Origin: Phyllobacterium myrsinacearum
GTDB taxonomy: Bacteria > Pseudomonadota > Alphaproteobacteria > Rhizobiales > Rhizobiaceae
Length of the DNA: 64,000 nt
Direction: 5' to 3'
NCBI RefSeq assembly: GCF_002980555.1
Contig: NZ_PVBT01000002.1
Span: 744,001 to 808,000, forward strand
Shown: positions 4,377 to 42,235 of the stretch, one piece after another
How positions within the stretch are numbered: the first letter of the stretch is position 1
Layout: the number at the start of each line of letters is the position of its first letter
Notes under the pieces: model-generated
Database searches by the model: none
What the model was told of the DNA's origin: nothing
What the model saw: the letters and a program-made list of their open reading frames with translations, nothing else
Position numbers and translations under genes: made by a program

Positions 4377-5276
4377 TCAAGCCCGGATAAGCCCGAGCCT
4401 GCGGGCTCTGTCCATGAGGTTTTTGACCGATGAGGCAGCCCAACGGGCGGCACCGCGCGGCGTCCGTTCGTGCATGGCCTCAAGCTGGCCGGCGATCTCG
4501 CGCAGGGTCAAATCCGGATTGGCATTGGCAATGCCGGTTATCAGCATCATGAGCCGGTCCTCCGGGGTCCGGCGAGGGGAGGGGGCTATCAGCTGCGCAT
4601 CCGCAAGCCCCTCATTGACCAGCAATCGCACCGAACGGCGCAGGCGGTCGGCGTTCCAGATTTGCCCGGTCTGGTGGCGCAGGCTGCGGGCCACCTCGTC
4701 CCAGGGGTGCTCGGGACGCATACGCTGCACGATGGGCAGCCAGGAGGACATCGCGGCTGTCAGATCCGCCAGGTGGCCGCGCCTGCGGGCCTCGGAGAGC
4801 TTTGCCAACGCCTCGGGGTTCTTTTCGCGCAGGCCAGGATTGCCCGGAAGCTTGCCCCGCGCGCGGGCGGCATTGATCCCCGCCTTGGTGCGTTCGGAAA
4901 TCAGGGCGCGCTCCAGCTGAGCCACGGCGCCGAGAACCTGCAGGGAGAACATGCCTTGGGGTGTGGAGGTGTCGATGGGATCATGCAGCGAGCGGAAATG
5001 CGCACCCTTTTCCTCCAACTGCTCGATGACAGTCAGGAGATGGCTGACGGACCGCGCGAGCCGGTCGAGGCGGACAACCACCAGGACATCACCACTCCTG
5101 ATCTCACGCAGGAGGCGGGCCAGGACGGGGCGGGCGCGCGACGCACCCGAACCGTGTTCCTCGAAAATGGTGCCGCAGCCTGCAGCCTTGAGTTCCAGAA
5201 GCTGGGCATCGTTGGCCTGATCTTCAGTCGAGACGCGGGCGTAGCCAATCAAGGCGGGTTTGGATGATACAGTCAT
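4377..5276 (-). CDS. Serine recombinase (resolvase/invertase family)
   Basis: A 299-residue small-serine-recombinase-type enzyme that cuts and rejoins DNA through a 5'-phosphoserine. The catalytic domain (residues 1-~140) shows 'IGYARVSTEDQ' with the nucleophilic Ser, 'VVRLDRLARS' and 'GAVAQLERALISERT'. The C-terminal ~150 residues are longer than in Tn3 TnpR, which is typical of the ~300-residue plasmid and transposon resolvases. The ATG at 5276 is preferred, since the frame could start nine codons earlier but homologous proteins begin near the beta-strand 'PALIGYARVS'. The DNA just upstream is AT-rich and followed by transposase debris, so this gene probably came in with a mobile element. 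Confidence 0.85.
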   Translation of the reverse strand: MTVSSKPALIGYARVSTEDQANDAQLLELKAAGCGTIFEEHGSGASRARPVLARLLREIRSGDVLVVVRLDRLARSVSHLLTVIEQLEEKGAHFRSLHDPIDTSTPQGMFSLQVLGAVAQLERALISERTKAGINAARARGKLPGNPGLREKNPEALAKLSEARRRGHLADLTAAMSSWLPIVQRMRPEHPWDEVARSLRHQTGQIWNADRLRRSVRLLVNEGLADAQLIAPSPRRTPEDRLMMLITGIANANPDLTLREIAGQLEAMHERTPRGAARWAASSVKNLMDRARRLGLIRA

Positions 5277-31063: not shown

Positions 31064-31609
31064 AGCGATGTGGCACTGACAACATTGCTATCATTCAGCG
31101 CTACAGACAACAGAGTACCCGCGCTTCACTGAACTGTTAAACGCCGTATGGGATATTACCCCGTCAAAATTGAGCAATAACACTCCAGACGTTATCCGGG
31201 AGTACTGCGCCGCAGGAAAACTTATATTGAAGGGATATCTTTATTATGCTTCCAAGAAGGTGCCAAAGGTAATCCAAAGAACTGAACTATCACAATCCTT
31301 GAAAATCATTTTAGCCAGAAATATGCGGGAAGGCGATAGGGCAAATCTGTTCGCGCTCGCAGTAGAAGTTGGCTTGTGAAATCGATATTTGTATTCTGTT
31401 CAAAAGCATAATGGAAACTGGTGCCGGCTGAATAAGAAGTCATTCGGTAGGTCGATGAAATCCGTTTGGTGATTTTGCTACAGCTGCTATCAAATCGCAA
31501 AATCCGGCGGTGAACAATCCTGCTCAATATGCCGGTTTCAGTTGAAATCTGTCATCGACTGCCGCTGATTTTGATGGTCTGAATGCGCGATAGTGGACTT
31601 TTATCTCTA

Positions 31610-31625
31610 TTCGACAATTGTCGAA
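31610..31625. promoter_or_regulatory. 16-bp perfect palindrome
   Basis: TTCGACAATTGTCGAA is a perfect dyad in AT-rich intergenic DNA between the kinase gene 3' end and the AraC gene. It looks like a repressor operator, but the nearest start codon it could serve (AraC, 31063) is about 550 bp away. Confidence 0.4.
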
Positions 31626-31654
31626 AATTAGCTATTAGCGGTCTTTACAAACGA

Positions 31655-31696
31655 AGACTTGCGAGTCTTTCACAGCATGAATAACCAATCATTTTT
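31655..31696 (+). repeat. 42-bp diverged direct repeat, copy A
   Basis: This 42-bp stretch matches 42870-42911 at 34 of 42 positions, and all eight differences are transitions. The same orientation and the position at both ends of the kinase/NRPS segment suggest island borders or remnants of a repeated element. Confidence 0.45.
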
Positions 31697-31793
31697 GGCT
31701 ACCGGCGATGTTGTTCAAAGGTCCGCAAAAGGGTCAAGCTTGCGCAGCCGCTCCGGAAGACTAAGCGACGTTGAAAACGCGCAGGGTCAGTTC

Positions 31794-33140
31794 TCAGTGA
31801 AAATCAACGCGCGCTTCGCGCCATCTCACTGCAAAACTGCTGCCGGCTCCAGGCGACGATACAACTTCAACGTAACCCCCATGGCTGGTGACAATATCGT
31901 TGACCATACTGAGGCCCAGGCCTGCGCCAGTTCCATGAGGATTGATACGGTAAAACGGTTCGAAGATTCGTACTTGCATGTCATCCGCAATGCCAGGGCC
32001 CTGATCCGTTACGAGAATGCTACCATCCGCCTCGATGCCGACAGAAATCTCTCCTGTTTTACCACCGTATTGAATTGCGTTACGGATCAGATTGGCGAGG
32101 GCGCGTTCTAACGCATCGGGTTCACCAAGTACAAAGGCGCATTTTGCCCTAGACTCGAAGGACATTTCATAACCTTCAGCGATTGCCAAAGGGGCGAAAT
32201 CGGCCACTATTTTCGACACGATGCTATTGAGTTCCACTCTGGTTTTGCGAGGCGGCTTCTGCCGATATTTCTCGATATCGAGAAGCTGATTGGTAATGGC
32301 TGTGAGCCGCTTTATGCCGGTCTGCAGATGAGACTTATCCTGACTAGGTGCCAAGGTGTCTATACGCAGCTGAAGGATTGCAATCGGTGTGCGCAGTTCG
32401 TGTGCCGCATTGACGAAGAACCGCTCTGTCGTTTCGAATCCGCTATCCAATCGCCGCAGGGCCATGTTGATGCCATTGAGGACGCGAAGTACTTCGTTAG
32501 GCATGGCGCGATCATCAACGACGCCGCCCCGCGCTTCGAAATCGATCTTATCCAAGCGATCAGTGAGGTCATTGAAAGAGCGAAGCGCCCATCGGGTAAC
32601 CAAAGGAACGCCTAAAACTGTGATCGTGGCTAGAATGATCGACGGCACGCCTATCGCAATATTGCCGAGCAACAGAATCAGGCTATATTGCGACATGGAC
32701 ATCCCACCCGTGAAAATGGCCGCTTCTCCAGCTATGGTCTCCATTCTTTGGAGCCGTACAACGTTTGTAGGATCATCGACGTATCCATGAAGTTCGGCGT
32801 TGCGAAACGTCCGCAAAAACGATATATTTCCAGCGACCTTTTCGGGAATATCACCGTGGGTGATTAGGTCACCTTTGGGTAGTTCAACGACGAACCATAG
32901 GCTTGGCCACTTCTCAATCATGCCCGACAATTGGCGCGAGGGAACGATTATTGCCTTTCCATCGACACCTACCTTGATCGATTCTGCTATCGCATCCGAA
33001 AGCCAAATGGAAGGGATGGCGCTATCAGGTCTGGCCCCGGACGCAGCATAGAAAACAAGCACAAGCGATGCTGCTATGGCGCAGAGTTGCAGTAAAATGA
33101 AACCAATCGTGAAGCGCCAGCGAAGTGAATAAACATTCAT
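31794..33140 (-). CDS. Two-component sensor histidine kinase
   Basis: A 448-residue membrane kinase. It has an N-terminal transmembrane helix ('FTIGFILLQLCAIAASLVLVFYAA'), a periplasmic loop of ~120 residues, and a second helix around 'LILLLGNIAIGVPSIILATITVLG'. A HAMP-like region follows, then the HisKA H-box 'NAAHELRTPIAILQLRID' and HATPase boxes 'NLIRNAIQYG', 'VTDQGPGIADD' and 'GTGAGLGLSMVNDIV'. The gene starts one base after the response-regulator stop, so they form one operon. Input signal unknown. Confidence 0.92.
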   Translation of the reverse strand: MNVYSLRWRFTIGFILLQLCAIAASLVLVFYAASGARPDSAIPSIWLSDAIAESIKVGVDGKAIIVPSRQLSGMIEKWPSLWFVVELPKGDLITHGDIPEKVAGNISFLRTFRNAELHGYVDDPTNVVRLQRMETIAGEAAIFTGGMSMSQYSLILLLGNIAIGVPSIILATITVLGVPLVTRWALRSFNDLTDRLDKIDFEARGGVVDDRAMPNEVLRVLNGINMALRRLDSGFETTERFFVNAAHELRTPIAILQLRIDTLAPSQDKSHLQTGIKRLTAITNQLLDIEKYRQKPPRKTRVELNSIVSKIVADFAPLAIAEGYEMSFESRAKCAFVLGEPDALERALANLIRNAIQYGGKTGEISVGIEADGSILVTDQGPGIADDMQVRIFEPFYRINPHGTGAGLGLSMVNDIVTSHGGYVEVVSSPGAGSSFAVRWREARVDFH

Positions 33141-33141
33141 C

Positions 33142-33816
33142 TCAGTCTAGCTCGTGAAGAAAGTAACCGATGCCGCGCACATTTTTGATGACAAGATTAG
33201 CGTGAGCATCAGCAAGCTTGCGGCGCAGTCGGGACAAGTTCACCTCCAGCGAATTAGACTGGATTTCGTCGTTGAACGAGTAGACTCGTTCTTCCAGCAA
33301 CGATCTCAAGACGGTACGCCCCCGGTTTCTCAAAAAAGTCTCGAAAATCAGGAGCTCGCGTCTGGCGAGAAGAAGTCTGATTCCCTTTACATGCACGTCT
33401 CGCGACGTATGATCGTAAGTGACGTTTCCGATTACGAGAATTGGAGACGCCTTATCTGCAGCGCGTCTTAGTACTGCGCTCATCCTGGCGACCAATTCAT
33501 CTATCTCAAATGGTTTGGGCAGGTAGTCATCAGCCCCATCATTCAATCCTGAAATTCTATCGTTGGCCGAACCAAGTGCAGAAACGATGATCGAGCGGAC
33601 GGACTTCCCCGAGCGGCGCATCTCCGCGAGCAGAGCGCTGCCATCCCCATCCGGCAATTGCCGGTCGATGAGAACAATATCGTAATCTGCCATGGCGATT
33701 GCCTCGCGGGCCGTTGCGAGATCAGCAACGGAATCAAGCACAACACCATGCTGCGATAGGGCCGTACGCAACGCGTCAGCCATTTCCAGATCATCTTCGA
33801 TGAGCAAGAGTTTCAT
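33142..33816 (-). CDS. OmpR-family response regulator (RR1)
   Basis: A 224-residue regulator. The receiver domain is 'MKLLLIEDDLEMADALRTAL' with phospho-acceptor Asp in 'IVLIDRQLPDGDG', switch Ser in 'IIVSALG' and the Lys in 'DDYLPKPF'. The winged-helix output domain ends 'LEVNLSRLRRKL' and 'VKNVRGIGYFL'. The ATG at 33816 is used; a GTG four codons upstream is less likely. It is cotranscribed with the kinase gene. A GTAAT-N6-GTAAT direct repeat lies ~52-67 bp upstream, suiting autoregulation. It is a paralog of the regulator at 35418. Confidence 0.92.
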   Translation of the reverse strand: MKLLLIEDDLEMADALRTALSQHGVVLDSVADLATAREAIAMADYDIVLIDRQLPDGDGSALLAEMRRSGKSVRSIIVSALGSANDRISGLNDGADDYLPKPFEIDELVARMSAVLRRAADKASPILVIGNVTYDHTSRDVHVKGIRLLLARRELLIFETFLRNRGRTVLRSLLEERVYSFNDEIQSNSLEVNLSRLRRKLADAHANLVIKNVRGIGYFLHELD

Positions 33817-34296
33817 TAGCGGTCCCACTCTGATGAGGCTTTTAATTACAGATAGGCTTCAACGCGAATTACATTAGTATTACGCTGATAATTTCGTGTT
33901 CATCAATAATGCAGCAATAATATGGAAAGTAAAACCTTTCCAATCATTGCCGCCACGCAAATAAGCTCCACCCAATTCCCCTTTGCCAACTCGAGCCTGT
34001 ACCTCACTGATAAGCCACGATATGACCGGTCGCTTGAGGATTAGGGGGAGCATATTTGAACCTTCAGCCGGGTAGATTTTGGCCAGCGCGCGTTTTGTTT
34101 GTGTGCCAACCCACAAAGCCGCCACGTCGTCGCCATGTCACCCGATATCTTTGCATTTTCGTAATTTGCGCATCAGGTAAAAAGCCGTTTTTCTTCTCCG
34201 GCGACCCTTATCGCAGCGCCATAGGCACCCCACGGGCGCGGCACAAACAACATTTTGTCCCTTGGATGGAAGGCTCACTTGTCGATCGCACTCGAC
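33817..34296. other. Intergenic region upstream of the two-component operon
   Basis: It contains the direct-repeat motif at 33868-33883 and a small TGGAAAG/CTTTCCA hairpin (33923-33942). No gene is supported: a minus-strand frame at 33880-34125 overlaps the motif region and has no ribosome site. Confidence 0.45.
33868..33883 (-). promoter_or_regulatory. GTAAT-N6-GTAAT direct repeat (site 1, upstream of RR1)
   Basis: Read on the minus strand, towards RR1, the sequence is GTAATACTAATGTAAT: two GTAAT units with an 11-bp period. OmpR/PhoB-family regulators bind tandem repeats of this kind. A third ATTAC (33845-33849 region) sits two turns further towards the gene. The following bases TGAAGCCTATC also resemble the sequence after sites 2 and 3. 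Confidence 0.5.
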
Positions 34297-34596
34297 TTAC
34301 CATTCTTCATAATACCGGCGTCTTGGCTGCTTGTCTTTTGAGGCTTCGGAGATCGCATATGCGCCTATTGCCCCTGCAGCCACGCCCACGGCGACTGCAC
34401 TCGCTGCCTGATCCGACTTTCGCCGATTTTCTGCATACACATTGCGAGTACAACGCTCATGCCGCCAGCTTCCCGGACGTAAGCCAGTGTTATCACAGGT
34501 TATGTAAGCGCTATTCATGGAGTCTTGGGATGATTGGCAACCTGATAACAAGGCAGCGGCGACGAGCATGATTGCTGGTAATGTCTTTGTTTGCAT
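34297..34596 (-). CDS. Small lipoprotein with glycine-zipper segment
   Basis: A 99-residue protein. The signal peptide 'TLPAIMLVAAALLSGC' ends in a lipobox (LSGC), so it should be lipid-anchored. A glycine-zipper-like hydrophobic stretch lies at about residues 66-84 ('ASAVAVGVAAGAIGAYAISEA'), followed by a basic and aromatic tail 'KQPRRRYYEEW'. Four Cys occur in the mature part or anchor. No family is recognised. Its upstream region shares an inverted 55-bp promoter-like arm with the response regulator gene at 35418, so both may be co-regulated. Confidence 0.75.
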   Translation of the reverse strand: MQTKTLPAIMLVAAALLSGCQSSQDSMNSAYITCDNTGLRPGSWRHERCTRNVYAENRRKSDQAASAVAVGVAAGAIGAYAISEASKDKQPRRRYYEEW

Positions 34597-34812
34597 GGGT
34601 CAGTCCTAAAATGACTTGGCTTTTTCTTTGATGAAACGTGCTCCCACCTAGCCAGTATTTCGTGCGTTATGGCAGGCAGACACGCCGACCTACACACCAG
34701 ATTGATGGTTTTGTGGTAGCAGGACTTGGTGATGCGCGTTGCGTCGATCTCACGACGCTTCACTGGGGTGATTTGAAACAAGATCAGCGAGATTCAATCG
34801 TTTTCAAGAAAC

Positions 34813-34867
34813 GGCCTCTCCTGTTTCGCCGGTAAGGATGAGGCTTCTGAATTACGGCAATGTTACA
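34813..34867. repeat. Left arm of 55-bp inverted repeat
   Basis: About 90% identical to the reverse complement of 35182-35236; the inner 37 bp differ at one base only. The arm carries direct-repeat site 2. The two arms may be duplicated promoters or the terminal repeats of a small (~424 bp) non-coding element; no target duplication is obvious. Confidence 0.7.
34850..34866 (-). promoter_or_regulatory. GTAAC-N6-GTAAT direct repeat (site 2, upstream of the lipoprotein gene)
   Basis: Read on the minus strand: GTAACATTGCCGTAATT, two GTAA units with an 11-bp period, about 250 bp upstream of the lipoprotein start and oriented towards it. It is identical to site 3. Confidence 0.5.
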
Positions 34868-35181
34868 TCACAAGATTTTTAGCGGAACCACGAAGGCCAG
34901 GGACGGAATTGCCAACCTATCCGGTGATAGGGGGTGCAGGAAGGCAGCAAGATCGCATCGAAACCGACAGGACACACTTCAAATATTCCCGCTGTTCACC
35001 ATCTTGCGGCCCAAATCTATCAGTTTCCAGCAGCTAGGTTTCAAACCGTCATTGCAAGCCATTTCAGACGGCAATGATATCTAGAAGCAAATCGCACGCA
35101 TGAAGATCGCCCAAGCGGGCCGCAAAGCTACCAGCGAGTCTTCCCCCAGATAAATGCCATGTCTTGTATGGTGTTTACCAT

Positions 35182-35236
35182 TGTAACATTGCCGTAATTC
35201 TGAAGCCTCATCCTTACCTGCAAAGCAGGAGAGACC
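35182..35236. repeat. Right arm of 55-bp inverted repeat
   Basis: Reverse-complement partner of 34813-34867, with one mismatch in the inner 37 bp and about four in the outer 18 bp. It contains site 3 and ends about 180 bp upstream of the response regulator start. Confidence 0.7.
35183..35199 (+). promoter_or_regulatory. GTAAC-N6-GTAAT direct repeat (site 3, upstream of RR2)
   Basis: GTAACATTGCCGTAATT on the plus strand, about 220 bp upstream of the orphan response regulator and oriented towards it. The following CTGAAGCCTCATCC matches the sequence after site 1 (TGAAGCCTATC) apart from small gaps, so a shared promoter architecture is likely. Confidence 0.5.
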
Positions 35237-35417
35237 TTGTACCAATAAAACTTTATGATCCTATTGGATCGCAAATAGAGTCCATCTCGGACGGGCAAAT
35301 AAACCACCCGCCCGATTTAGTGTCCCTAACCTTGACTGCAATCATCCACCACTATGGCATCCTCATCGAGTGGAACAATGGAAATATCGAAGACAGAGCG
35401 AACAGATTGGGAGTCCG

Positions 35418-36092
35418 ATGCGAATACTTCTTGTCGAGGATGAAGAGGCTATGGCGCTGGCTTTGATGAAGATGTTTGCACAACAAGGCTGCATCATGGA
35501 TCACGTTACCACGATTGCGATGGGTGAAGAGGCACTTCGATCCAACGTTCATGACGTAGTTCTATTAGACCGCAATCTCCCCGATGGAGATGGGGTTACA
35601 CTTCTTCGATCTATGCGCAACATTGGCGTCACCACCCCGGTGATCGTACTCAGTGCCTTCAATGGGCCTCTCGATCGAATTACTGGCCTTGATTATGGCG
35701 CGGATGATTACATCGGTAAGCCGTTCCTTTCAGAGGAATTGATGGCGCGGATTCGTGCCGCAATACGACGATCAAACTTTTATTCATCGAACGTCATATC
35801 TGCGGGAAATGTCAAATTAGACCTCGGCAATCTTGACGTAATCATTGATGGTCGTGTCATGCCATTTCCACGACGTGAAACATTGGTACTGAAAAGCCTG
35901 CTTGCGCGGGCCGGAAAGACGGTCCTGCGTCAAACGATCGAGGAAGCTGTCTATGGATATGGTGACGAGATTCAATCGAACTCACTCGATAGTCACGTAT
36001 CGCGGCTTCGAAAACGGCTCATGGCTTCAAAAGCCAATATACAAATTCATGGAATACGTGGAATAGGGTATTTGTTAAAGGAAGCTACTTGA
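35418..36092 (+). CDS. OmpR-family response regulator, orphan (RR2)
   Basis: A 224-residue regulator paralogous to RR1. The receiver is 'MRILLVEDEEAMALALMKMF' with phospho-acceptor Asp in 'VVLLDRNLPDGDG', 'VIVLSAF' and Lys in 'DDYIGKPF'. The output domain ends 'SLDSHVSRLRKRL' and 'IHGIRGIGYLL', strikingly like RR1 ('EIQSNSL' and 'RGIGYFL' are shared). The ATG at 35418 is used; the longer frame upstream is not protein-like. No kinase gene adjoins it, so it may be phosphorylated by the kinase at 31794. It lies 219 bp from the 3' end of the NRPS transcript. Confidence 0.92.
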   Translation: MRILLVEDEEAMALALMKMFAQQGCIMDHVTTIAMGEEALRSNVHDVVLLDRNLPDGDGVTLLRSMRNIGVTTPVIVLSAFNGPLDRITGLDYGADDYIGKPFLSEELMARIRAAIRRSNFYSSNVISAGNVKLDLGNLDVIIDGRVMPFPRRETLVLKSLLARAGKTVLRQTIEEAVYGYGDEIQSNSLDSHVSRLRKRLMASKANIQIHGIRGIGYLLKEAT

Positions 36093-36310
36093 GCTTTTTA
36101 ACATGCACTCATTGAGGGAATATTGACGCCTCTTCATGTCCTATAGTGCATCGCAGCCAGATTTTTGCCTGGCGAAACATGAGCGCATTCCCGGAATCTC
36201 GGCTGGCGACAAGAATGAGCGTCCATAAGATTAGAACGGGAAATGCGTCAATATCGACGACAATGATCGGCTCGCCTCAAATTTCAAAGCGCCCCCCTTT
36301 TGATACATGA

Positions 36311-36646
36311 CTAAGGATTACCCGCTTTACGGTTGCCCCAGTAGTGATCGGATATATTCTGCCCGTTTTGGAGAATGTGGGTCGCTAATTGCGGATTGCC
36401 TCCCTCGTAAGTCTCAGTATCCCCACCGCATAGCAGCACGAACAGACGCTGGTGTGCTACGGCAGCAAAATAGTCCCTCGGCGGTGGTTCCTGCTGCCAT
36501 TCTGTCGATTTCAACTCCGCTGCGGCCTGTGCGGTGGCATCATCGATGGCTTTGTAGATCGTAACCAACATGGCTTGTTGGACTCGATCCTGTATTTCGA
36601 GGTATTGTCTCTCAGCCGGCGTAAGAACGGGGCAGCTGTCTTTCAT
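36311..36646 (-). CDS. Hypothetical protein downstream of the NRPS gene, 111 aa
   Basis: A small, mostly helical, soluble protein ('LTPAERQYLEIQDRVQQAMLVTIYKAIDDATAQAAAELKSTEW') with a mixed C-terminal half. There is no signal peptide or membrane segment. An AGGA site precedes the ATG at 36646. It is the third same-strand gene after the NRPS and the 76-residue gene, with 119 bp before it; motif site 4 lies ~143 bp upstream and points at it, so it may have its own promoter. I do not recognise the family. Confidence 0.6.
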   Translation of the reverse strand: MKDSCPVLTPAERQYLEIQDRVQQAMLVTIYKAIDDATAQAAAELKSTEWQQEPPPRDYFAAVAHQRLFVLLCGGDTETYEGGNPQLATHILQNGQNISDHYWGNRKAGNP

Positions 36647-36765
36647 CAATGAAATTCCTAGACAGGTTCTTGGTTTTGAGCCGTATCAACATGTATTGGC
36701 GCCGCCGTTGAAGCCGAAAAAGCAACTGTCGATATCAACAGCTTTGGCACAAGGTCGAGAATGTT

Positions 36766-36996
36766 TCAGTCATCAAGATAGGAACACAAAATTACGGCGA
36801 TGTTACGCACCTGAAATAAGCCGTCTACCATCAACGTTGCAGCCGCTCTTGCAATGAAAGTGTTCGCAGGCAGCGGCGTAATTTCTGCATAACGGTCTGG
36901 GATCACAGTTTTCTCGCAGATACGTTCATGCCAACTCATAGCCGTTGCCTCCGTATCCCAATTCCATTCTGAAGTATCAGTAGTATCAGTGGTCAT
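36766..36996 (-). CDS. Hypothetical protein coupled to the NRPS gene, 76 aa
   Basis: The ATG lies 7 bp after the NRPS stop codon and is preceded by GGGAG, so it is almost certainly translated with the NRPS. The protein is acidic and Thr/Trp-rich at its start ('MTTDTTDTSEWNWDTEA') with a hydrophobic C-terminal half ending 'RNIAVILCSYLDD'. Its size is like an MbtH protein, but the MbtH signature (Asn-x-Glu-x-Gln-x-Ser-x-Trp) is absent. It could be a substrate, immunity or accessory protein; the function is unknown. Confidence 0.6.
   Translation of the reverse strand: MTTDTTDTSEWNWDTEATAMSWHERICEKTVIPDRYAEITPLPANTFIARAAATLMVDGLFQVRNIAVILCSYLDD
36790..36806 (-). promoter_or_regulatory. GTAAC-N6-GTAAT direct repeat (site 4)
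   Basis: Read on the minus strand: GTAACATCGCCGTAATT, one base different from sites 2 and 3. It lies inside the 3' part of the 76-residue gene and ~143 bp upstream of the 111-residue gene, oriented towards the latter. Nine bases later comes TATCTT, a possible -10 box. Confidence 0.45.
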
Positions 36997-37003
36997 ATAC
37001 TCC

Positions 37004-40000
37004 CTAGAAGCTAGCGGTTATTGCGTCTGATATCAATTTTCCAACGATAGTCAGGTGTGGTGAGGTCATCATTGTATAGTGATTGCCGGGAACGACAATG
37101 TATTGGAATTGCTGATCTGGTACGGCTCGTTTCCAAATTTCCAATAGATCTCTGCCCTGTGGCTCCGCATTGGATGGTTGATCTTCGGCAGCAAAAAGAT
37201 GGATTGGAATGGGTAAGGAATGCAATCTATAGTTCATTGTCGCATGCAGATGCGCCGCCATGCGATTTGTATATTTCTTGACTTCACTGTTCGAATACTC
37301 TTGAAAAATTGAAACGCCAGATTCACGGAACTTGTGAAAAAGCTCTTCGTAGCCCAAACTTTTAGCCAATTTCTCCAAACCAGAAAAATCGCCATCATCG
37401 TCGGTTGAGACAGATATCATTCTCACAAAATCAATTAGATAATCAGTTTCAGAGTTTGCCCCAAATGTCTCTTCATACATCTTCCTTTCAGGAACATATG
37501 TGTCAAGGAGGCCCAAAAACTCAACGTTCTGTCCTTGTCCAATAAGTTGCTTGGCTACTTCATAGGCCAACATGCCACCGAAGGACCAGCCGGCAAGACG
37601 GTAAGCACCAGAAGGTTGGACCATACGAATAATACGAACCAGACGCGTTGCAAGACTTTCCATTGTTTGTAATTGGGGCTTATCGAGTGGAATACCTGGC
37701 AATCCATAAATAGGAATGTCGCGGTCAATATGCGCTGCCAACACGGGAAAATATAAATCCAGTCCCATAAACTCGTGAAGCAGGAACAACGGTCGCTTCG
37801 TCCCAGTTGTCCTTACGGGGATGGCCTCTGGCATGGTGGATTTGTTGAGTTTCAATGACATGGATTCTGTAAGCAGCTCTATCGTGGGGTTCTTGAACAA
37901 CTGAGTTATAGTGATTGAGATGCCCGCCCGTTTAAGAAGCCCTACCAGTTTGACGGCCAGCAATGAATGCCCGCCGAGTTCGAAGAAGTTGTCGCTTCGT
38001 CCCACCCGTTCGACCTGTAGCAGTTCAGCCCAGATGTTGGCCAGCACCGTCTCGATCTCGCCGACGGGCGGCTCATAGGCCCGTATCGCATAAGCATTGC
38101 CATCCGGCATTGGCAGTGCCTTGCGATCCAGTTTGCCATTGGGTGTCAGCGGCAGGGCATCCAGACAGACGTAGGCAGCCGGGATCATGTAGTCAGGCAG
38201 CAGCGCGGCGAGATACGTCCGCAGTGCCTCGGCCATTGCCGGCCTGGCGTGTAGCACTTCGCCGCTCCCGGCATCTCCACCCGGCACCCGGGCCGGTGTG
38301 TAATAAGCCACAAGCCGTTTGGCACCGACTGCATCATCCTGCGCCACCACGACCGTGTCACGCACGGCGGCATGTTCTCCGAGCTTTGCCTCTATCTCGC
38401 CAAGCTCGATGCGGAAGCCGCGAATCTTCACCTGGAAGTCATTGCGACCCAGGAATTCAATATTGCCATCGGGCAGGTACCGGGCAAGGTCTCCCGTGCG
38501 GTACATGCGTGCTCCGGCCACAGCTGAGAACGGATCGGGCAGGAACCGCTCCGCAGTCAGTTCTTCCCGGTTCAGATAGCCGCGCGCAACGCCTGCGCCC
38601 CCGATATGAAGCTCGCCAACAGACCCCGTCGGCACAAGCTCTCCATGATCATCAAGCAGGTAGACCTTTAGATCTGGAATGCGGCGACCAATTGGACTGG
38701 CTCCCCGCTTGTCGGCGTCGGCTGGCACCAGTGGCCGGTATGTAACATGAACTGTCGTCTCGGTGATGCCGTACATGTTGATAAGTTGGGTCTGCTGATT
38801 CTGCCGGCGTTGATACCATGGCTTGAGTATCGCTACTTCGAGTGCTTCGCCGCCGAAGATCACATGACGCAGTCGGTGCGACTGTGCCTCTTCTCCTTGA
38901 ACGGCAATCAATTGCCTGAAAGCGCTAGGTGTTTGGTTAAGGATGGTGACGCTTTCATCACACAGCAACTGGTAAAACTCGGTGGGGGATATGCTCGTCA
39001 ATTGCGGAACAATGATCAGACGGCCACCATGGGCCAAGGCACCCCACATCTCCCAGACCGAAAAATCAAATGCAAACGAATGGTATAGTGCCCACACATC
39101 GTCATGGTTGAAGCTAAACCAAGGGCTTGTGGCGCTGAACAGGCGATGCACATTCCTGTGTTCGACCATGACGCCTTTTGGGATGCCGGTAGAGCCCGAT
39201 GTATAAATGATATAGGCAAGGTTCTCCGGACTAAGGTTAGCAATGCGCTGATTGATGGCATTATTCTGGGCCCACTTGCAGGCGTCAATCGTCAGATCGA
39301 TCAGCGGAATGGCCGTCTTTTGAACCGAACCGCTGTGGGTGCTGTCCGTCGTGCAATCATCTCCCGCTATCTGTCCTTTACAAGCGGCGGCTAACATATC
39401 CCGCACACCGGCATCCACCGCACCATGTGTGAGCACCGCAACCGGCATACTATCCTTGAGCATGAAGGCCAGCCGCTCCCGTGGATAAGCTGGATCAAGC
39501 GGCACATAGGCCCCGCCTGCCTTCAGGATCGCAAGAAGCCCGACCATCATGTCGAAGGAACGTTCCACGCAGAGCGCAACCCGGCTGTCAGGCACAACGC
39601 CAAGCTCTATCAAGTGATGCGCCAACCGGTTGGCGCGTCCATTGAGCTCTTCATAGGTCAGTGTCTCGCCCTGATGAACGAGGGCAATTGCATTCGGCCG
39701 AACTGCTGCCTGTTCTTCGAATAGTTCATGTATGCAGCGATCCTGAGGATATGCCCCACCCGTCCTGTTAAAGGTTTCGAGCAGCAAAGTACGTTCTGCA
39801 TCCGGAAGAATGGGAATAGACTTGATCGGAAAGGAAGCGTTATTCAACACGTACTGAAATATAACAGCCAATCTATCCCGCAAGGCATGCATTTCAGCAT
39901 CATCGAAATAGGCCTTGTTGTAAACAAATTCGATTAGGACATCGCTATCGTCACAAGGTTCCCTGACCCAAAGACTCAAGGGAAGTTGGGAATAACTGTT

Positions 40001-41212
40001 GTGCAGCATGAAATCTCGAGCAACGGCCGACCCGAATCTGGATTGGACTTGAGGCGGCCCGCTAGAAATCTGGACGTCAAAGAGATTTCGATGATCGGCG
40101 AGGGGCCTCGTTGCACGGGTGACCTCGCTGATGGGAAACCGTTGATGGCGATAATCTCGTCTGATAACTCCATTAACTTCTTGTAGCAATTCCACAAAGC
40201 TTTGATTTGTGTTGCTTGAAATACGTACCGGACTAACACCCACAAACATTCCGGCCGTCGCCTTAAATGCAGCTGTAGAACGATTCAGCACCGGCACGCC
40301 AATTGCAATATCGTCCTGTTGACAGGTGCGCGCCAAATAGACGTACAACACACCTAATATTGCTTGAAATGTGCTGACGCCGTTCTCCTTTGCAAAGGTT
40401 GCGAAACGATCATAAAGACTTCTGTTTAAATACAGCTGCTGGCATCCGTTTATGGTGCATGCATGAGAAAGGCGATGACGGTATACAGGCGGAAATAGCG
40501 GGTTGGGAAGAGTTTGATATTTTTCAGTCCAATAGGCCCGCTGACGCTGGAAAGCAGCTCCCTTAGTGTACGTGTGTTCATTCTGAATGAAATCCAGATA
40601 TAAAGGAGCTGTCAAATCTGGCCTGTCACCAGATTCAAGCGCGGTATAGATGGAACCTAGTGAAGGATTGAGCAGCGAAGCAATACCCCAGCCATCGATG
40701 ATTATGTGGTGAAATACACACAGATAATAAAAGCAGTTGGGGCCAATCTTAAGTAGCTCATAGCGGAACAGTTTTTCGCCGTAAAGCGCAAAAGGCCTAT
40801 CCATTTGCTGCTGCATCCATTCGAGAGCTGCAACATGCGGGTGCTCATAATTGGAGAAATCTTGGAAAGGGACTTCGACTTCGAGAGCATCAACGAAAAT
40901 CTGTCCTGGCAAGCCATCCTCGCCCGCGCCCTCGACCAAGATCGTTCGCATACAATCGTGTTTCTGTACCAAAAGATTGACTGCACGCTCGAACCGCTCA
41001 GGATCAACAGTGCCGAGAATCTGGACATACCCCCCGTAATTGTAGAGCGGCACATCGTTGTGAACCATCTGATCAAACCAGATTTCACGTTGGGGTGATG
41101 TCAGCGGGATAATTAGCCCAGTTAGTTCTGTGTTGGAAGCGAATTTGCCAATCGCTGATGCAGCCGATGAATCGATCTCGCGATTGCTATTCCGATAGCT
41201 TCGATGTTCCAT
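37004..41212 (-). CDS. Single-module non-ribosomal peptide synthetase (C-A-T-TE), predicted threonine-activating
   Basis: A 1402-residue NRPS. Condensation domain ~33-470 has an intact active site 'HHIIIDG' (168-174). Adenylation domain ~495-1030 carries 'YTSGSTGIPKG', 'MYGITETT', 'YRTGDLARY' and 'NGKLDRK'. The specificity residues read by alignment to PheA are D716, F717, W720, N759, I785, G787, M813, V821, H822 and K1027, that is DFWNIGMVHK, the classic threonine code. The carrier domain has 'LGGHSLL' (S1083). The thioesterase ~1140-1402 shows 'GWSFGG' (S1210), D1237 and H1378. A GGAGAG site precedes the ATG. The C domain comes first, so an external acyl or aryl donor is needed; none is encoded here, nor is a phosphopantetheinyl transferase. 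Confidence 0.93.
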   Translation of the reverse strand: MEHRSYRNSNREIDSSAASAIGKFASNTELTGLIIPLTSPQREIWFDQMVHNDVPLYNYGGYVQILGTVDPERFERAVNLLVQKHDCMRTILVEGAGEDGLPGQIFVDALEVEVPFQDFSNYEHPHVAALEWMQQQMDRPFALYGEKLFRYELLKIGPNCFYYLCVFHHIIIDGWGIASLLNPSLGSIYTALESGDRPDLTAPLYLDFIQNEHTYTKGAAFQRQRAYWTEKYQTLPNPLFPPVYRHRLSHACTINGCQQLYLNRSLYDRFATFAKENGVSTFQAILGVLYVYLARTCQQDDIAIGVPVLNRSTAAFKATAGMFVGVSPVRISSNTNQSFVELLQEVNGVIRRDYRHQRFPISEVTRATRPLADHRNLFDVQISSGPPQVQSRFGSAVARDFMLHNSYSQLPLSLWVREPCDDSDVLIEFVYNKAYFDDAEMHALRDRLAVIFQYVLNNASFPIKSIPILPDAERTLLLETFNRTGGAYPQDRCIHELFEEQAAVRPNAIALVHQGETLTYEELNGRANRLAHHLIELGVVPDSRVALCVERSFDMMVGLLAILKAGGAYVPLDPAYPRERLAFMLKDSMPVAVLTHGAVDAGVRDMLAAACKGQIAGDDCTTDSTHSGSVQKTAIPLIDLTIDACKWAQNNAINQRIANLSPENLAYIIYTSGSTGIPKGVMVEHRNVHRLFSATSPWFSFNHDDVWALYHSFAFDFSVWEMWGALAHGGRLIIVPQLTSISPTEFYQLLCDESVTILNQTPSAFRQLIAVQGEEAQSHRLRHVIFGGEALEVAILKPWYQRRQNQQTQLINMYGITETTVHVTYRPLVPADADKRGASPIGRRIPDLKVYLLDDHGELVPTGSVGELHIGGAGVARGYLNREELTAERFLPDPFSAVAGARMYRTGDLARYLPDGNIEFLGRNDFQVKIRGFRIELGEIEAKLGEHAAVRDTVVVAQDDAVGAKRLVAYYTPARVPGGDAGSGEVLHARPAMAEALRTYLAALLPDYMIPAAYVCLDALPLTPNGKLDRKALPMPDGNAYAIRAYEPPVGEIETVLANIWAELLQVERVGRSDNFFELGGHSLLAVKLVGLLKRAGISITITQLFKNPTIELLTESMSLKLNKSTMPEAIPVRTTGTKRPLFLLHEFMGLDLYFPVLAAHIDRDIPIYGLPGIPLDKPQLQTMESLATRLVRIIRMVQPSGAYRLAGWSFGGMLAYEVAKQLIGQGQNVEFLGLLDTYVPERKMYEETFGANSETDYLIDFVRMISVSTDDDGDFSGLEKLAKSLGYEELFHKFRESGVSIFQEYSNSEVKKYTNRMAAHLHATMNYRLHSLPIPIHLFAAEDQPSNAEPQGRDLLEIWKRAVPDQQFQYIVVPGNHYTMMTSPHLTIVGKLISDAITASF

Positions 41213-41604
41213 TAGGGTATCTCTCCGAAATCCAGATCCGGTCTCTAATCTTTACGCAAATGTTGATCTGACACGTGTACTGGCTTGATTTGCTAAGAGG
41301 AGATAGGCGTGCATTATTGCACCTACCTTCGTTCTCCTAGTACATGATGTTCAGTGGGGGATTGCTGCCCAGAGATGATGAGAAGTCAGTGAAACACATA
41401 TGTAGACAACACGTTGAACGGCGTTGTCGACTTAACGGGTGATACTGCCTTCTACTCACTAAGACAAAATCGTATGGCAACAAATTCAATGGCTTATGGC
41501 CAAGAAAATCGGGCGGGATACTCCCAAGAAGCACTACATAGCATTGAGTCGGTAACTCCTCCAGTAAGTCACAAATAACGTGATCTCATAGTGAGGACGC
41601 TAAT
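41213..41604. other. Intergenic region upstream of the NRPS gene
   Basis: About 390 bp with a weak direct-repeat motif at 41250-41266. A minus-strand frame at 41337-41534 (65 codons) lacks a ribosome site and any family feature, so no gene is supported. Confidence 0.45.
41250..41266 (-). promoter_or_regulatory. Weak match to the GTAAC-N6-GTAAT motif (site 5, upstream of NRPS)
   Basis: Read on the minus strand: TCAACATTTGCGTAAAG, matching sites 2/3 at 12 of 17 positions with the same spacing. It lies 38-54 bp upstream of the NRPS start. It may be a low-affinity site or chance. Confidence 0.3.
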
Positions 41605-42006
41605 TCATCTGCAGCGGTAACGTTGGCCATCGCGACCGATAAATGTACACTGATCACGGCGGTTTTTTTCGGCCTCGCTGGCTGCCCCTATTGCTATGGC
41701 TCCAATCGCAAGACCAATGACACCAGCGGCGATCGCGGCATCAGCTTCTTTCTTTTTGCGCTGTTTTTCACGCCATCTCTCTTCACGCCGACGATCGTCA
41801 TACCTGTCTGCGTCTCTAAAGCAGCGCTCGCGATCCCAACCATCATAGTCACGGCAATCTCCCCGATCACCGTCCCATTGAACACGTTGAAAACTCCCCA
41901 ACGGAGCGCGTTCAATTGCACCCGCAGGCGTCACGGTGATAATCAGGTTACCCGCGACGGCAAAACAGATTGAGCGAAAAAATGTTGTAATCAATGAAAT
42001 CTCCAT
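41605..42006 (-). CDS. Secreted hypothetical protein with glycine-zipper segment
   Basis: A 133-residue exported protein. A hydrophobic leader 'ISLITTFFRSICFAVAGNLIITVTPAGA' precedes a highly charged Asp/Arg-rich middle ('RYDDRRREERWREKQRKKKEADA'). A glycine-zipper-like stretch follows ('AAIAAGVIGLAIGAIAIGAA'), with a C-terminal 'CTFIGRDGQRYRCR'. Its zipper resembles the lipoprotein at 34297. The ATG at 42006 is used, with a TTG five codons upstream as alternative. No family is recognised; an envelope-stress or membrane-associated role is a guess. Confidence 0.7.
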   Translation of the reverse strand: MEISLITTFFRSICFAVAGNLIITVTPAGAIERAPLGSFQRVQWDGDRGDCRDYDGWDRERCFRDADRYDDRRREERWREKQRKKKEADAAIAAGVIGLAIGAIAIGAASEAEKNRRDQCTFIGRDGQRYRCR

Positions 42007-42235
42007 TTTGGCTGAGGGCAAAGCTTAAGCATTTACATGCTGCAATATTGCCCCAGAATTTGAGCTCTAAAGCTTGGCAAACTCTTCGTTCGAGGCCATG
42101 AAAGCCATTGGCTATCCAAGTTCGTGAGCACAGACTGCAACCTGTGGCTCAGTGGAACGCCGTCGATTGGATTGTCTGAAACTGTTAGTATCGGACCCTT
42201 AATGCGTCCGTCCTCCGAACAAGGTGGCAGCGCCC

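Follow-up and report, generated by a model that had tools for sequence, protein, structure and literature searches.

What is the function of a short tandem repeat that recurs upstream of several genes in the genome of Phyllobacterium myrsinacearum, and which regulator would recognize it? We addressed this question in a stretch of 64 000 nt (contig NZ_PVBT01000002.1, positions 744 001 to 808 000; the whole stretch is called the window below), which encodes a two-component system composed of RR1 (33142..33816, minus strand), an OmpR/PhoB-family response regulator (RR) with a receiver and a winged helix, and its partner, a histidine kinase (HK; 31794..33140, minus strand) with HisKA and HATPase_c domains and the H-box FFVNAAHELRTP. 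A first-pass annotation had proposed that repeats of the form GTAAY-N6-GTAAT tie the RR1-HK operon, a lipoprotein gene, the gene of an orphan response regulator (RR2), a small gene and a non-ribosomal peptide synthetase (NRPS) gene into one regulon. Reading positions 31500-41700 together with the listed open reading frames (ORFs), we confirmed the places of four of these sites: each is an exact GTAAY-N6-GTAAT with a period of 11 bp, that is, a tandem direct repeat of about one helical turn resembling OmpR/PhoB operators, and each is oriented towards its downstream gene. Site 1 (GTAATACTAATGTAAT, 33868..33883, minus strand) lies 51 bp upstream of the RR1 ATG and is the putative operator and promoter of RR1-HK. 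Site 2 (GTAACATTGCCGTAAT, 34851..34866, minus strand) is found 254 bp upstream of the lipoprotein ATG, site 3 (GTAACATTGCCGTAAT, 35183..35198, plus strand) 219 bp upstream of the RR2 ATG, and site 4 (GTAACATCGCCGTAAT, 36791..36806, minus strand) 144 bp upstream of a gene for a 111-aa protein, with TATCTT 10 bp downstream of the site. Our analysis suggests, with a probability of about 0.75, that the repeat is the operator of RR1-HK, through which the system would activate its own transcription and that of a few genes nearby. The system as a whole is best read as an envelope-type two-component system that occurs sporadically, often on plasmids, regulates itself and has a small local regulon.

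The repeat in the host genome

The host assembly (5 437 700 bases in 44 contigs) contains seven exact matches to GTAAY-N6-GTAAT, four of which are sites 1-4 within 3 kb. When the pattern is extended by one base to GTAAY-N6-GTAAYT, four matches are found, and all four are these sites, within 3 kb of 5.44 Mb. The reversed pattern, used as a control, gave 4 matches against 7 for the GTAAT form and 3 against 4 for the GTAAYT form. It is the placement of the sites, concentrated in 3 kb at the genes named by the first-pass annotation, that goes beyond chance, while their total number is barely above that of the reversed-pattern control. By trying gaps of 1-16 nt in the window (GTAAY-Nn-GTAAYT) we obtained four matches at gap 6 and none at the remaining 15 gaps; the corresponding all-gap search (GTAAYN{1,16}GTAAYT) returned 20 matches in the host genome. 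A looser search with an 18-base pattern and at most two mismatches gave 8 matches compared to 7 for the control, with sites 2 and 3 at zero mismatches, site 4 at one and five others at two; site 1 was not among these eight. Apart from the one upstream of RR3 (see below), two other exact sites were recorded in the host genome. One (C2:361542, locus L068) has no convincing target. The other (C1:1233091, L069) precedes, by about 180 bp, an ORF that resembles a solute-binding protein and has a divergent LacI-like ORF next to it, both judged from their translations.

We also scored the window with a matrix built from 18 sites, all taken from other genomes and weighted by similarity (effective number 2.4 for the core and 8.0 with the -10 columns). 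With the core matrix, sites 4, 3, 2 and 1 take ranks 1, 2, 3 and 5 of the roughly 128 000 positions in the window, and the matrix including the -10 columns places sites 3, 2 and 4 at ranks 1 to 3, with site 1 outside the top 14. This test is not wholly independent, because the 18 sites themselves came from the pattern of the first-pass annotation.

The RR1-HK module in other genomes

Orthologues of RR1 (E ≤ 1e-85) occur in 8 of the 394 sampled genomes of the family, host included, and at E ≤ 1e-80 the only hit among 397 genomes of the order sample is the host genome itself; no match above 53% identity was seen in 20 congeners. Among the 5000 best-scoring plasmid records, 22 carry RR1 at 60-80% identity. 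The orthologues include those of Mesorhizobium sp. 1M-11 (81% identity), Agrobacterium, Rhizobium rhizogenes, Pararhizobium and Brucella pituitosa, and the plasmid records include pAtC58, plasmids of Shinella and Ochrobactrum quorumnocens, and Rhizobium sp. CC-CFT758. We compared 21 RR1-orthologue loci (L001-L009, L078-L084 and L085-L089; 68-81% identity), several of which are close kin and one of which (L079) stems from the same contig as L002. An exact GTAAY-N6-GTAAY was observed ahead of the RR operon in 20 of them (9/9 for L001-L009) and a version with one mismatch in the last, L082. Because the motif precedes the RR operon in 21 RR1-orthologue loci, it looks functional. An HK orthologue follows RR1 in the long-flank loci L001-L007, L009, L086, L087, L089 and L148-L152 (the record of L008 ends at the RR), and the motif travels together with the RR1-HK pair.

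The distance between motif and RR ranges from 43 bp to about 1.2 kb in these relatives, since other genes may come first. The position of site 1 is comparable to that in L001 (43 bp upstream of RR1). The motif is also found ahead of genes for glycine-zipper proteins, MacAB, a CPBP protease or a beta-lactamase-family protein. On pAtC58 a site comes first, followed by the YMGG-like glycine-zipper protein, RR and HK and then by a second site, MacA and MacB; in L001 two divergent sites serve a glycine-zipper gene on one side and a CPBP-family gene on the other (CPBP by ORF reading, in L086 by annotation), and in Rhizobium sp. CC-CFT758 a site lies ahead of a gene annotated as beta-lactamase. The site before MacA carries one mismatch in L006, L009 and L081, and no exact MacA site was found in L152. 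A second module copy, comprising HK, MacAB and only a partial RR match, was seen on the CC-CFT758 plasmid (539000-551000, L154/L138) and in L137; the CC-CFT758 copy has sites upstream of the partial RR and before MacA. An extra exact site on pAtC58 (188289, minus strand, L139) has no annotated gene on its side.

The spacing control gave the same picture outside the window. The pattern GTAAYN{1,16}GTAAYT has 137 matches in the six RR1-bearing genomes whose matches were fully listed, 18 at gap 6 and 119 at other gaps; 15 of the 18 gap-6 matches lie within 10 kb of an RR1 module or its second copy, compared to 2 of the 119 others. Further RR1 genomes are less clean: at the module we found 2 of 5 gap-6 matches in G413, 2 of 4 in each of G410 and G411, and in G414 1 of 4, at RR1, while G194 has no match with the extra T. 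Counting all 4-mer pairs with gaps of 0-18 in 11 module promoters outside the window, we observed that GTAA-N7-GTAA alone occurs in all 11, the next best pair reaching 8; this count uses no prior pattern, with the limits that promoters and lengths were chosen with the loci known and that three glycine-zipper promoters are kin. The 20 congeners lacking RR1 have 39 matches in total (0-4 each) against 175 for the reversed-pattern control, and G414 has 4 forward matches against 22. This excess of control matches is not read as a depletion of the motif, because the reversed pattern differs in TA content.

The glycine-zipper gene, which was found in 140 of 394 genomes (E ≤ 1e-10), allowed a comparison of loci with and without a regulator. 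We fetched 30 loci. In all five loci where an RR stands next to the glycine-zipper gene, a sense-strand site lies no more than 130 bp upstream of the gene (four exact, one with one mismatch). The other 25 loci, whose 1.5-kb flanks contain no RR, have no site within 150 bp; one of them has a one-mismatch match at -382. RR-adjacent and RR-less loci differ, therefore the motif follows the regulator, and glycine-zipper genes as its carrier were rejected by this comparison. One exception was seen in B. pituitosa, where a site about 82 kb from the RR1 site precedes a second glycine-zipper gene (L140); no RR1-like RR was found in the 13 kb of this locus, and RR1 is encoded at another place in the same genome.

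Could the repeat still be a product of chance or base composition, found post hoc? The pattern was fitted to these very sites in the first-pass annotation, the genome total scarcely exceeds that of the reversed control, sites 2 and 3 stem from one duplication, and the region is AT-richer than the window (49% against 55% G+C). Set against this are the concentration in 3 kb, the gap control, the dyad count and the joint travel with RR1 orthologues, and we regard a chance origin as extremely improbable; it is location, gap and co-travel that rule it out, not the total number of matches.

As a separate observation, three exact sites within 12 kb surround an RR-HK pair in a congener without RR1 (G009, contig C14, 61000-80000, L136). 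The regulator of this pair is 45% identical to RR1, and the locus may represent a parallel local regulon.

Site architecture and candidate target genes

We aligned 23 sites, which remained after the removal of near-copies from 50 collected ones; three of them come from the window and six belong to more distant regulators. Outside the searched core, C is found at -1 in 19 of the 23 sites, a pyrimidine at +6 and at +7 in all 23 each, and C at +10 in 14. Further downstream we observed A at +27 in 17 sites, T at +28 in 12 and A at +29 in 14. A YATA-like hexamer is located 10 bp past the second half-site, and the conserved A at +27 would fit a -10 element. Class II activators such as PhoB or PmrA would need a -10-like hexamer at such a spacing. 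Many glycine-zipper promoters of the relatives have a second, inverted site upstream: with 0-1 mismatch at 67-68 bp in L001, L004, L009, L086, L089 and L140, and with 2-4 mismatches at 66-67 bp in L003, L005, L007, L008, L085 and L088; no such site was found at the glycine-zipper promoters of L002, L006, L149 and L152. The layout in the window is similar at site 4, where a one-mismatch site on the plus strand (36878..36893) faces away at 71 bp, as in the relatives' divergent pairs 67-68 bp apart. There is no evident gene on the side of this second site; it may have an accessory role or be left over from a divergent gene since lost.

Sites 2 and 3 lie in the two arms of an inverted repeat, which is a duplicated promoter block of 55 nt: arm 1 (34813..34867, minus strand) is 91% complementary to arm 2 (35182..35236, plus strand), with 314 bp between the arms. 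The first-pass annotation had pointed to a stretch shared after sites 1-3. The stretch is indeed present, but it is mostly explained by the duplication: after sites 2 and 3 it provides no independent evidence, because both are copies of one promoter, and the TTGAAGCCT of site 1 itself stands at a slightly different distance from its site than in sites 2 and 3.

While RR1-HK is firmly placed as a target of the motif, the lipoprotein gene, RR2 and the 111-aa gene are predicted targets on the basis of their upstream sites. The lipoprotein (34297..34596, minus strand) has 99 aa with a glycine/alanine-rich stretch. At E ≤ 1e-6 it did not match the glycine-zipper protein of the relatives, and the likeness between the two is a resemblance only. 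RR2 (35418..36092, plus strand) is an orphan response regulator 45% identical to RR1 and a possible second binder of the sites; both regulators match PF00072 (Response_reg) and PF00486 (Trans_reg_C) above the gathering scores. The 111-aa protein (36311..36646, minus strand) has no assigned function and no Pfam or NCBIfam match; it belongs to a real family present in related genomes (13 of 297, host included; the alignment has 14 rows), and the neighbours of its homologues differ between the two records examined. AlphaFold2 predicts three helices with a mean pLDDT of 82.9, and a Foldseek search of this model against the PDB returned nothing at E ≤ 0.001. The membership of the 111-aa gene in the proposed regulon appears weaker than that of RR1-HK, the lipoprotein gene and RR2.

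Do these sites really serve the genes assigned to them? They might instead drive short leader RNAs or decayed genes, so that the lipoprotein, RR2 and 111-aa genes would not be real targets. This would agree with the 144-254 bp that separate the three window sites from their genes, and with the duplicated block itself, which ends just past GGAGAG, a ribosome-binding-like sequence, with no conserved gene behind it. However, our judgement from the ORF list is that no other convincing gene of at least 60 aa lies between sites and targets, and the RR1 site as well as most of the measured sites of the relatives are close to genes, so we consider this alternative unlikely. Other relatives have longer spacings, too: in L087 the first annotated gene is 564 bp away from the site, and in L151 the RR is at a distance of about 420 bp. 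An ORF of 76 aa (36766-36996, minus strand), for which neither Pfam nor NCBIfam gave a match, starts right after the stop codon of the NRPS gene, has site 4 inside its 3' end and is possibly cotranscribed with the NRPS gene.

The NRPS itself (domain order C-A-PCP-TE) had been included in the regulon by the first-pass annotation through a weaker fifth site (41250..41266, minus strand). Apart from the neighbourhood, this proposal can draw on the 7 of 10 core bases that the site retains. With 3 of 10 core bases wrong, the site ranks 399 with the core matrix and 533 with the -10 columns added, which is background, and it was rejected as an operator. The site list of the window contains no site with 0-1 mismatch up to 400 bp upstream of the NRPS gene, and we judge its membership very unlikely. 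The best plasmid-borne NRPS relatives are less than 60% identical. Upstream of the NRPS gene, a 138-aa protein with a glycine-zipper-like stretch (41605-42021, minus strand) is encoded, with no 0-1 mismatch site before its gene. What stands of the proposed coherent regulon is the group of RR1-HK, lipoprotein and RR2, tied together by an OmpR/PhoB-type site that travels with RR1-HK orthologues; the 111-aa gene is a weaker member, and the NRPS gene drops out.

The candidate regulator, related systems and significance

Which regulator would act on these sites, and how? In our proposal, RR1 is phosphorylated upon a cell-envelope cue by HK, whose sequence suggests an inner-membrane kinase with a segment in the periplasm. 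An RR1 dimer would then bind head-to-tail to the two GTAAY half-sites, which are separated by one DNA turn and lie some 10 bp ahead of the -10 element, and would recruit RNA polymerase in class II fashion. RR1 may in this way activate its own operon together with the small lipoprotein, the orphan RR2 and the 111-aa protein, while in the relatives the targets would be a glycine-zipper lipoprotein, MacAB efflux, and a CPBP protease or beta-lactamase-family protein. The recognition helix of RR2 is nearly that of RR1, and RR2 may likewise bind these sites, modulating the response. While the motif, its gap, its concentration at the module and its travel with RR1-HK were observed, binding, activation, the topology of HK and its signal are inferred.

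Several observations weigh against this proposal. The majority of sites were located using the very pattern of the first-pass annotation, and sites 2 and 3, as copies of one duplicated block, are not independent. Site 1 is a poor fit to the -10 spacing, as it is lost from the top 14 once the -10 columns are added. In the window, sites 2, 3 and 4 lie 254, 219 and 144 bp from the starts of their genes, compared to 43-91 bp in the eight promoters measured in relatives. None of the 17 homologue loci of the 111-aa gene has an exact motif, and two have a one-mismatch match. Finally, more distant response regulators also have the motif before them (L067, L134, L135, L136) or nearby (L153), and the sites could therefore be bound by a regulator other than RR1. 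Response regulators at 41-60% identity sometimes carry it, namely RR3 (L067), the homologues in L134, L135, G009 and G409 and, with one mismatch, an RR2-like operon in G320; thus the motif belongs to a regulator subfamily, of which RR1 is the most constant partner here. RR3, which belongs to a third RR-HK pair of the host genome (L067; G000, contig C2, 95000-104000), is 42% identical to RR1 and has an exact site (4917-4932, minus strand) about 190 bp upstream.

An alternative to RR1 as the sole binder is a circuit in which RR1 and RR2, and perhaps other PmrA-like regulators of the host genome, share the sites: RR1 would induce RR2, which would then compete for the operators or take them over. 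The recognition regions of the two proteins are almost identical (DEIQSNSLEVNLSRLRRKL against DEIQSNSLDSHVSRLRKRL). The 60% RR2 homologue in G320, in a glycine-zipper-RR operon with a one-mismatch site, points in the same direction, as does the motif upstream of RR3 and of the homologues in L134 and L135. On the other hand, just 2 of 27 RR2-homologue loci (L109-L135) have an exact motif, and among nine RR-paralogue regions fetched from the host genome (35 RR matches) only that of RR3 has an exact site. Searching the RR1-orthologue loci with RR2 returned RR1 itself and one remote RR (25%, L002), and no second close RR. We give such a circuit somewhat less than even odds. We regard RR1 as the likeliest binder of the sites, since its orthologues occur with the motif at loci that have no adjacent RR2.

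In design, RR1-HK resembles UzcRS or PmrAB. PmrA is the best NCBIfam match of both regulators (171.6 and 177.8 bits), and PmrA/BasR structures (PDB 4s04, 8jo2) are among the nearest solved structures of RR1. The scores are below the equivalog cut-offs: RR1 reaches 171.6 of 330 bits for PmrA, 167.9 of 337 for TctD and 162.5 of 345 for QseB, and RR2 likewise stays below all three. PmrA binds tandem repeats whose half-site differs from GTAAY. The CpxR box is GTAAA-N5-GTAAA-like, so that gap and last base differ from the motif described here, and the CpxR protein match is weaker (84.6 bits). For UzcRS of Caulobacter crescentus, a review reports an 18-bp site, CATTAC-N6-TTAA, which is located 43 or 53 bp ahead of the transcription starts (PMC8963506); a logo of the site is given as a figure in the EMBO J. 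paper on UzcR (PMC12864828). Read as its reverse complement, TTAA-N6-GTAATG, the site as given there shares the GTAAT half and a similar spacing with our motif, whereas the other half is TTAA and not GTAAY (PMC8963506). UzcRS is likewise an alphaproteobacterial two-component system with envelope targets, which are many there but few and local here.

The closest known pair is ATU_RS24760/ATU_RS24765 on pAtC58 of Agrobacterium fabrum C58, with an RR 76.6% and an HK 64.5% identical to those of the window and the motif before the operon and macA. The two loci differ in that the pAtC58 operon opens with the YMGG-like glycine-zipper protein and is followed by MacAB, neither of which is present at that place in the window, which has its own lipoprotein, RR2 and 111-aa genes instead. 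Among the papers listed by our literature searches, none was a study of the pAtC58 RR-HK pair.

Taken together, the repeat is very probably, as judged from sequence comparison, a conserved operator of an accessory two-component system whose kind, with its UzcRS/PmrAB-like design, is already known. For the system on the model plasmid pAtC58 the outcome is a candidate operator, a short target list and a recurring link to a pump, with the NRPS gene taken out of the regulon proposed for the window. More tentatively, and with more doubt than confidence, RR1-HK and its operators may form a portable, insulated envelope-defence cassette, often plasmid-borne, with its own DNA word that is scarce elsewhere in its hosts, which swaps effectors between genera and captures newcomers by copying a promoter block. 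If so, the swapped effectors would be MacAB, the CPBP protease, the beta-lactamase-family protein and glycine-zipper lipoproteins and, in the window, the orphan second regulator, and the 55-bp duplication would show the capture of a newcomer by promoter copy. The locus would then illustrate how a horizontally moving regulator brings its own sites along and recruits targets through promoter duplication.

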